This document shows positions 7,562 through 9,600 of a stretch of DNA of 34,322 bases, in pieces. Made by a program: the position numbers and the translations under genes. How positions within the stretch are numbered: the first letter of the stretch is position 1; each line of letters opens with the position of its first letter. This DNA is from Methanosphaera stadtmanae (GTDB taxonomy: Archaea > Methanobacteriota > Methanobacteria > Methanobacteriales > Methanobacteriaceae): assembly GCA_015062825.1 (NCBI GenBank), contig SUTR01000007.1, positions 28,260-62,581 on the forward strand, given 5' to 3'. The notes under the pieces are model-generated. The model did not search any database, was not told the origin of the DNA, and saw nothing but the letters and a program-made list of their open reading frames with translations.

Positions 7562-7846
7562 ATGACTAAGAAAAAAAATAAATTACAAGAATTGGGAGTT
7601 ATTAGCCATATTACAAGTACAAATAAACTAATAATCCCCTCAAATAAAACTCCACGAATAGGAACAACATTAGTTAACAAGAATAGACAAGCAATAGGCA
7701 GAATAAATGACATAATTGGACCTACAAAAAATCCATACATATCAGTTAAAACAAATCATAAATTCAAAAAAATAAACGTTGGAGAAAAAGTATATTTACC
7801 ACCAAAAAATAAAGGAAGGAGGATGAGAAAACGGCAGGCATACTAA
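7562..7846 (+). CDS. gar1: H/ACA RNP protein Gar1
   Basis: A 94-residue archaeal Gar1, the beta-barrel subunit of H/ACA ribonucleoproteins that binds Cbf5 and helps turnover in RNA-guided pseudouridylation. Features seen are [30 protein letters not shown], then [19 protein letters not shown], and a basic tail. No ribosome binding site precedes the ATG; AATTATATTT about 40 bases upstream may be a TATA box, so the leader would be very short. gar1 directly preceding TFB is a common archaeal arrangement. Its last codons overlap a strong GGAGG (7818-7822) belonging to the next frame: AGG AGG ATG encodes Arg-Arg-Met of Gar1. Confidence 0.92.
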
Positions 7847-8484
7847 GAAGAAAACGAAAATACGGGAGACCAAGAAAAACATCAAAAAGATTAAAAGATG
7901 ACAGAAAAAAAGAAGAAGAAAAACCACCCGTAGAAGAAACAATCACTGAAGAAGAAAACACCGAAGAAGAGGAAGAAGAGGAAGAAGAGGAAGAAGAGGA
8001 AGAAGAAGAAAAAAACACCAAAAAAACTACAAAAAACAAAAAAGTCAAAAAAGAAGATAAAAAACCTAAAAAACGAGGAAGACCAAAAAAGAAAACAACA
8101 GACAAAGAAAGCGAAGATGACAGCAAACATACAACAACCATTCTAGAAAAACAAGAACCACCTAAAAAACGTGGCCCTGGAAGACCAAAAAAAGAGAAAG
8201 AACCAGAGAAAAAGAAAAAACGAAAAGCAGGAAGACCAAAGAAAAAAACAACAGAAACAGCCGATAAAAAAGAAACCAAAAAAAGAGGCCCAGGAAGACC
8301 AAAGAAAAAAACAACAGAAAAAACAACAAAAACCACTAAGAAAAAATCAGGAAAATCAAAGAAAAAAACTGAAAAAGAAACTGAAGAAAAAGCAAAAAGC
8401 AAAAAATCAACCAATCCACTAATAGGTATCATAGACAACATAAAAACTTCCAAAAAAGATGATGACGATACAAATGATGACGAT
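7831..8484 (+). other. AT-hook rich extension in frame with TFB, no canonical start
   Basis: The TFB frame is open without interruption from 7813 (TAA at 7810-7812) to the TFB stop. Between 7813 and 8484 there are 224 codons with no ATG, GTG or TTG. The translation is not noise. It contains five AT-hook cores: Y-G-R-P-R-K (7861-7878), K-R-G-R-P-K-K-K (near 8071-8094), R-G-P-G-R-P-K-K (near 8170-8193), A-G-R-P-K-K-K (8227-8247) and R-G-P-G-R-P-K-K-K (near 8284-8310), plus a degenerate S-G-K-S-K-K-K (8347-8367). A run of 16 Glu (7963-8010) and an Asp-rich end precede ATG 8485. GGAGG at 7818-7822 is 8 bases before ACG 7831, which would give (M)[15 protein letters not shown]. Inference: the extension is translated by ACG initiation or by a -1 frameshift from gar1, or else one base is wrong in the sequence. 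Confidence 0.6.
7963..8010 (+). repeat. GAAGAAGAG tandem repeat encoding poly-Glu
   Basis: Four exact copies of the 9-mer GAAGAAGAG are followed by four GAA, giving 16 Glu codons in the TFB frame. Slippage in units of 3 or 9 would change the length without breaking the frame. Confidence 0.8.
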
Positions 8485-9600
8485 ATGAGTGACTTCATAA
8501 CAGACAGTATGGGTTCACCAGATATGATGATGGAAGACTCAGATGTAGCACTTATGTCAAACTCTGATTTAGATGTAGAAGAAATCATCAAAATAGACTC
8601 CACAGAATCTGAAGAATTTGAAGAAGAAACAAACAATCCAAACAGAATTAGTGAAAAAGAACAAATGAAAGAAGACGTTGCAGAGATGGAGAAAAAAGAA
8701 ACACAATGTCCTGAATGTGGTTCAACCAGACTCATCAACGATCATGAAAGAGGAGAAGTAGTTTGTGGTAACTGTGGATTAGTAATAGATGACAATCTTG
8801 TAGATATGGGACCAGAATGGAGAGCATTCGACCATGAACAAAGAGACAAACGTACAAGAGTAGGAGCACCAATCACATACACAATCCACGATAAGGGATT
8901 ATCAACCATGATTGACTGGCGTAACAAAGACATCTATGGTAGAGATATTCCTGCAAGAAACAGAGCACAATGGTACAGACTTAGAAAATGGCAAAGAAAA
9001 ATCAGAATCAGCGGTGCAACAGAAAGAAACCTTGCATTTGCATTAAGTGAACTAGACCGTGACTCATCAAGACTGGGACTTCCTAGATCAGTACGTGAAT
9101 CTGCATCAGTTGTATACAGAAATGCAGTAGAAAACAAGCTCATACGTGGACGTAGTATCGAAGGTGTAGTTGCAGCATCATTATACGCAGCATGTAGAAG
9201 ATGTCAAGTACCAAGAACCCTTGATGAAATAGCAGAAGTATCACGTGTAAGCAAAAAAGAAGTAGGAAGAACATACAGATTCCTTACAAGAGAATTACAT
9301 ATAAGACTACCACCTACCTCACCAATAGACTATGTTCCAAGATTTGCAAGTGAATTAAACCTATCAGGATTAGTACAATCCAAAGCTATAGAAATAATAA
9401 ATCAAGCAATGGAAAATGGACTAACCAGTGGTCGAGGACCAACAGGTGTAGCAGCTGCCGCATTATACATTGCAAGTGTACTTCTTGGTGAAAGAAAAAC
9501 ACAACGTGACGTTGCAGATATTGCAGGTGTAACAGAAGTAACAATCAGAAACAGATACAAAGAATTAACAGAACAGTTAGATATGGGAGTTGCATTATAA
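8485..9600 (+). CDS. tfb: Transcription initiation factor TFB
   Basis: Archaeal TFIIB homologue, which binds TBP-TATA and recruits RNA polymerase. From the first available ATG it is 371 residues. The zinc ribbon has Cys75, Cys78, Cys94 and Cys97 (CPECG ... CGNCG), the B-finger/linker is [22 protein letters not shown], and two cyclin repeats follow, ending in the BRE-binding helix region [20 protein letters not shown]. About 74 acidic residues precede the ribbon from this ATG, whereas archaeal TFBs usually begin 10-20 residues before it. No candidate ATG here (8485, 8509, 8524 or later) has a ribosome binding site, while a strong one lies at 7818-7822. The true product is therefore probably longer, up to 589 residues with the AT-hook extension. 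The core assignment is certain; the start is not. Confidence 0.95.

Follow-up and report, generated by a model that had tools for sequence, protein, structure and literature searches.

A GRP-repeat N-terminal extension of transcription factor B in Methanosphaera and its probable initiation at an ACG codon

Methanosphaera is a gut methanogen whose gene for transcription factor B (TFB) raises a question of extent: where does the protein begin, and does the lysine-rich stretch that stays open ahead of its first ATG belong to it? In the window analysed here, a stretch of 34,322 nucleotides from Methanosphaera stadtmanae, the list of open reading frames places the TFB frame at 7813-9600 on the forward strand, as are all features of the window described below, with 595 codons, 224 of which precede the first in-frame ATG at 8485; no ATG, GTG or TTG occurs in this frame 5' of 8485. 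A previous sequence-only reading of this DNA had proposed that those 224 codons encode an AT-hook domain of TFB translated from an ACG at 7831, and the open frame on which the proposal was based is confirmed by our analysis.

Read from this ACG, TFB would comprise 589 residues, with a lysine-rich extension of 218 residues (7831-8484), an acidic linker (8485-8706) and, from residue 293 onwards, canonical TFB with a zinc ribbon and two cyclin-type TFIIB repeats (8707-9597, stop codon at 9598-9600; Pfam and NCBIfam). The identity of the folded core is given by matches above the cut-offs to Pfam TFIIB (7e-48, two stretches), Zn_Ribbon_TF (2e-20) and NCBIfam PRK00423, and by PDB matches to 1d3u and 1ais (E about 1e-67). 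Across 17 aligned relatives this core hardly varies, and profile searches found a single TFB match in its own genome. The zinc ribbon and the two cyclin repeats are shared with archaeal TFB and eukaryotic TFIIB, whereas here the zinc-ribbon cysteine comes only after 292 residues, which include a GRP array and an acidic linker. Immediately upstream lies gar1, which encodes an H/ACA RNP component (7562-7846; Pfam Gar1, E 8e-14) and whose 3' end runs into the beginning of the long TFB frame, a feature that the earlier reading did not mention. By HMM, gar1 is present in all 113 main-locus tfb contexts tested, and is not found beside the paralogs L021 and L167.

The five GRP cores, the run of 16 Glu and the Asp-rich end previously described were all located in the extension. 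Core 1 (KYGRPRK, 7864-7872) lies near the start and is found in 16 of 16 aligned genus members; it is followed by core 2 (KKRGRPKKK, 8077-8085), by core 3 (RGPGRPKK, 8179-8187), which belongs to a conserved 20-residue block, and by cores 4 (RKAGRPKKK, 8230-8238) and 5 (RGPGRPKKK, 8293-8301). The Glu run (7963-8010) is absent from the other 15 aligned genus members, while a 10-residue counterpart of a short motif conserved in the alignment (consensus NPLLEIMDNF) stands at 8413-8442. At least three GRP were obtained in none of 100,000 residue shuffles of the extension, and an open run of 224 codons arose once among 20,000 mononucleotide shuffles and twice among 20,000 first-order Markov sequences; the extension is therefore not a product of chance, as had been argued for its five cores.

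Conservation within the genus leads to the same stretch of protein. The TFB search recovered a TFB frame with 3-7 GRP cores in 20 of 20 Methanosphaera genomes (the genes of G005 and G006 are in pieces, and their N-terminal piece was read), and in 18 of them this frame leads without interruption from the start codon into the zinc ribbon; L011 is broken by the shift of a single base, in a run of A between the first and the remaining hooks, and in G005 the start is unreadable. Over this stretch, the two other frames hold 5-57 stops in 16 aligned genus sequences, and the zero in-frame stops of these 16 are partly a consequence of how the sequences were chosen. Conserved blocks open exactly at the start codon, with [M/T]AGIL(K/R)RKKR.GRPRK in most aligned rows, and continue downstream with a 30-residue and a 16-residue stretch, the latter within the acidic linker. 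With pS near saturation and the alignment uncertain in gaps, pN/pS amounts to 0.60 for the extension, 0.26 for the linker and 0.06 for the core, which suggests that the extension is weakly constrained outside its conserved blocks. The earlier reading had indicated that random sequence at this place in related genomes would speak against it; within the genus this is not so, since the GRP array is kept in every genome. Fused to TFB and conserved genus-wide, the extension is almost certainly a coding part of the protein, and on this point the earlier claim stands.

Outside the genus, GRP was found between the start and the zinc ribbon in none of 97 contexts, with tails of 17-235 residues (median 33), and the array appears to be genus-specific among the contexts examined. 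In M. curvatus (L039, the same as the named L119) and in Candidatus Methanoflexus mossambicus (L120), sisters on the tfb tree, the same ACG is immediately followed by a long tail that is both rich in Arg, Lys and Thr and acidic, and devoid of GRP; thus, a basic tail seems to have arisen more than once at this position.

Regarding the start codon, the anti-SD duplex energy in the window is best for the ACG at 7831-7833, and the GGAGG (7818-7822) of a Shine-Dalgarno (SD) site, AAGGAGG (7816-7822), is indeed located 8 bases 5' of it, as had been observed. Seven Methanosphaera genomes (L002, L004, L005, L006, L007, L012 and L014; 6 distinct contexts) open TFB with an ATG behind AAGGAGG, 7 nt after GGAGG, and this ATG aligns with ACG 7831. 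Conversely, the ATG at 8485 has no SD site, in agreement with the earlier statement that TFB lacks an ATG with a ribosome binding site, and is not conserved among the aligned genus members. ACG 7831 is, on these comparisons, the best-supported start of TFB and very likely the one used in the window. The ACG with its SD context, like the fusion and its conservation, can be read from the sequences directly.

To place this codon in a wider frame, tfb was gathered from the genus, family, order and class; 80 of 113 relatives in one set were read along with further loci, and the order search gave 145 matching genomes. Duplicates, recognised from the 120 nt around the zinc ribbon, were left out, as were the paralogs L021 and L167 and also L020, whose N-terminus was unread. 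The resulting 119 contexts correspond to the 115 of a codon-blind scan plus L079 (the same as L142), L117, L143 and L171, these four being read by eye, as were L011 and L124 within the 115. With an assignment that favours ACG where several codons fit one SD site, the start is ACG in 108 of the 119 contexts, in all of which it lies 7-8 nt after an SD-like site, ATG in 10 (L002, L004, L005, L007, L012, L014, L158, L079, L124 and L143) and ATT, at the same place, in one (L047). In the codon-blind scan of 115 contexts, ACG ranked first for anti-SD pairing, alone or tied, in 97, and alone in 54. Furthermore, 32 of 118 parsed contexts have no ATG, GTG or TTG anywhere from the stop that opens the frame down to the zinc ribbon, and a non-AUG start is therefore hard to avoid. 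The only sampled genome not belonging to the order (G150, L171) has an ACG 8 nt after GGAGG too, with an ATG two codons later. In genomes of the Methanobacterium/Methanothermobacter type, an ATG lies 10-15 codons before the zinc ribbon, mostly overlapping the gar1 stop, and would be as possible a start as ACG; the case for ACG is weaker in these genomes because this alternative exists. Taken together, we strongly infer the use of ACG as a start from these alignments; its presence in tfb across the sampled class means that it is no peculiarity of this genome and, most simply, ACG would predate the GRP array.

Known systems offer partial parallels. In bacterial infC, an AUU start serves autoregulation by IF3, and the likeness consists of a conserved near-cognate non-AUG start with a good SD site in an essential gene; here, however, the codon is ACG rather than AUU, and the product is a transcription factor, not a judge of start codons. 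The ACG start of AAV VP2 likewise yields an N-extended form of a protein, but this is a eukaryotic virus relying on leaky scanning to a downstream AUG, whereas in tfb there is an SD site and no SD-backed downstream start. According to the main text of PMC5622118, AUG-to-AUU switches amount to 1 of 61,358 ancestral AUG starts, and ACG was not found in that main text; a passage of PMC8211752 states that aIF1 discriminates against non-canonical start codons. Among the matches listed from open-licence PMC papers, no title or abstract start dealt with an ACG start in archaea or with AT-hooks in TFB. Confirmation of this start would mean that, throughout an archaeal class, an essential gene begins at a codon which the ORF tool, with its set of table-11 starts, does not recognise; TFB may therefore be annotated too short across the group.

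Why ACG has been kept is a separate matter. In one explanation, to which we give even odds, the codon is a frozen accident without regulation: as it lies, in most genomes, inside the 3' end of gar1, a C-to-T change would give Arg-to-Trp or a stop in gar1, blocking the transition of the tfb start to ATG. With gar1 extent judged by HMM, and by eye in L079, L124 and L143, the overlap covers ACG in 87 of 105 ACG contexts; the ATG version of L158 creates a TGA that ends gar1; and the three contexts judged by eye have no overlap and start with ATG. On the other side, gar1 ends 1-316 nt upstream in 18 ACG contexts, where ACG is kept nonetheless, and one genome swapped ACG for ATT, another weak start. 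On a tfb-core tree of 94 rows, the start codon underwent 5 changes, while 29 two-fold third positions taken for comparison had a median of 13 and a range of 3-24; among 16 gar1-free rows the start codon underwent 2, which is not unusual, as 19 of the 29 third positions change as little, and which fits the frozen accident. This control not being significant, selection for a weak start is possible only, and selection for ACG itself was discarded as the full-tree difference disappears in the gar1-free rows. Maintenance of ACG for regulation is an unlikely explanation. Within 7000-9700 of the window, an Rfam scan found no element at the gathering threshold, and the predicted folding of the TFB start region was no better than that of shuffles. 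Equally doubtful is a broader proposal, a counterpart of infC, in which a class-wide weak ACG would let aIF1 stringency set TFB supply and global transcription, while the Methanosphaera array would hold few copies on AT-rich promoters against histones. The frozen accident concerns only why ACG is kept, and is compatible with a long TFB made from ACG.

Other genes of Methanosphaera bear on how unusual such a start would be. Of 585 long ORFs in the 800 kb scanned from genome G017, 92 carry GGAGG at a distance suited to initiation; where these offer no ATG, GTG or TTG at that place, ACG occurs only at tfb; queE (G017:C1:1605285-1605992, reverse strand) and lonB (G017:C1:1396475-1398523, forward strand) point to ATT and ATA starts. 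Reading by eye 20 Methanosphaera queE loci (relatives L213-L232), ATT or ATC was found at the SD-linked place in 18, with an additional in-frame ATG 5' of the SD site in two of these (L224 and L225); the exceptions are L228, with ACG 8 nt after GGAGG, and L232, with ATG. For lonB (relatives L233-L250), 16 readable loci gave ATA or ATT behind GGAGG in 13, TTG in L235 and L236, and ATG in L250. Near-cognate starts thus seem to be tolerated in Methanosphaera, which speaks for initiation at ACG and makes tfb less special in the genus; to judge from these likely starts, gene callers probably overlook further genes of this kind in Methanosphaera. ATT or ATA candidates were also seen in hisH, gatB and a glycosyltransferase-like gene, named by eye; the G017 candidates are L209 near C1:1693301, L189 near 335460 and L186 near 268900.

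The function of the extension is less settled than its existence. Repeated GRP cores with Lys/Arg flanks in a disordered chain are a trait of AT-hook proteins such as HMGA and the plant AHL family, and the eukaryotic basal factor TAF1 has AT-hooks as well. In TFB the cores are instead fused to an archaeal basal factor, and the canonical RGRP occurs in one of five (8077), the others being YGRP, PGRP, AGRP and PGRP; several RGRP cores are found in L015 and L018, and mostly PGRP elsewhere in the genus. Pfam AT_hook (PF02178) matched the extension with 15.6 bits (E 0.09), the best of 2 matches in the genome and below the cut-off of 17.4, and hmmscan of three extensions with E up to 10 gave no AT_hook match. 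The identification as AT-hooks made from the sequence alone holds for the GRP repeats with basic flanks, and is made less certain by the Pfam score and by the four cores that are not RGRP. The extension is predicted to be a disordered tail, with AlphaFold pLDDT mostly at 28-46 over ten-residue blocks, and helices are modelled in the linker at residues 249-266 and 275-288. The basic GRP repeats, five in the window and 3-7 across the genus, suggest multivalent DNA contact, and we lean towards a DNA-binding tail as the role of the extension.

A rival explanation, possible although clearly less probable, holds that the tail is a polycation for contacts with chromatin, RNA or RNAP, or for solubility, with no specificity for the AT minor groove, and that the GRP repeats expanded by slippage and recombination. 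The sub-threshold Pfam score, the variable number of hooks, the low-complexity spacers, the weak overall constraint (pN/pS 0.60) and the GRP-free basic tails of M. curvatus and Methanoflexus at the same place are all consistent with it; however, GRP cores among Lys and Arg are kept in all 20 genus genomes while the spacers change, GRP is absent from the 97 contexts outside the genus, and shuffling of the extension did not reproduce three of them. The former suggestion that an AT-rich genome accounts for such a tether cannot be the whole reason, because Methanobrevibacter relatives, likewise AT-rich, have no GRP array. Furthermore, 11 histone-fold matches over the cut-off in the genome of the window indicate that other proteins already cover AT-rich DNA, a point against tethering which also makes competition or cooperation of the tail with chromatin plausible.

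With these findings, the reading that we prefer, at a probability of about 0.72, is a long TFB from an old weak ACG, with a GRP array that binds AT-rich DNA near promoters. A single TFB of 589 residues would be made from ACG 7831, selected by the AAGGAGG 8 nt upstream and read as Met by initiator tRNA; by its spread, this codon would most simply be a weak start inherited from the class ancestor. Most relatives have some 17-50 residues from the start to the zinc ribbon; in Methanosphaera, this stretch would have expanded to hold 3-7 GRP motifs with lysine/arginine flanks, arranged in a disordered array, and the acidic linker after them. The array would most likely bind AT-rich DNA near promoters through several weak contacts, raising the local concentration or residence time of TFB beside TBP and histones, and the linker would keep the basic tail off the folded core; we only infer the tethering and the role of the linker. 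If this is true, a multivalent DNA-binding tail on the basal initiation factor itself would be a simple means of hastening promoter search or competing with histones.

The same long protein might be reached by another route: ribosomes could initiate at ATA 7840, or start at ATG 7823 and make a -1 shift, or the ACG could become AUG through C-to-U editing. We consider all of these improbable. ATA is on the full NCBI table-11 start list, with which the TFB ORF would be called from 7840, but it lies 17 nt from GGAGG and the codon is missing in L015. ATG 7823 directly follows GGAGG, but the bases between it and ACG vary among relatives and so have no slippery run in common. Moreover, gar1 stops before the ACG in the 18 ACG contexts already described, by which a Gar1-TFB fusion by frameshift was discarded as well. 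Editing would predict the alternation of ACG and ATG seen among relatives, but the ATT of L047 is not convertible to AUG by C-to-U. Finally, a functional short TFB starting at ATG 8485, or at another ATG further downstream, with the preceding part as a leader or minor product, would agree with 8485 as the first in-frame ATG and with the standard NCBIfam TFB model (312 residues in all), which begins at residue 281 of the long form, but is most improbable given an unconserved 8485 without an SD site, and as the main product it was rejected in view of the sister genomes carrying the extension behind ATG and SD and of the contexts with no standard start before the zinc ribbon.

Some minor observations were made along these searches. 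The second-best AT_hook match of the genome (L172, G000:C96:27029-27055, 13.8 bits) is an RGRPKK motif in a helix-turn-helix-like ORF of 164 codons. The Methanosphaera genome G008 has three extra TFB-like matches (L021, L025 and L026), two of which (L021 and L025) have no GRP array, and L021 starts with ATG and a good SD site. In addition, a contig labelled Erysipelotrichaceae bacterium (L080), probably mis-binned, carries a methanogen tfb that groups with Methanobrevibacter.
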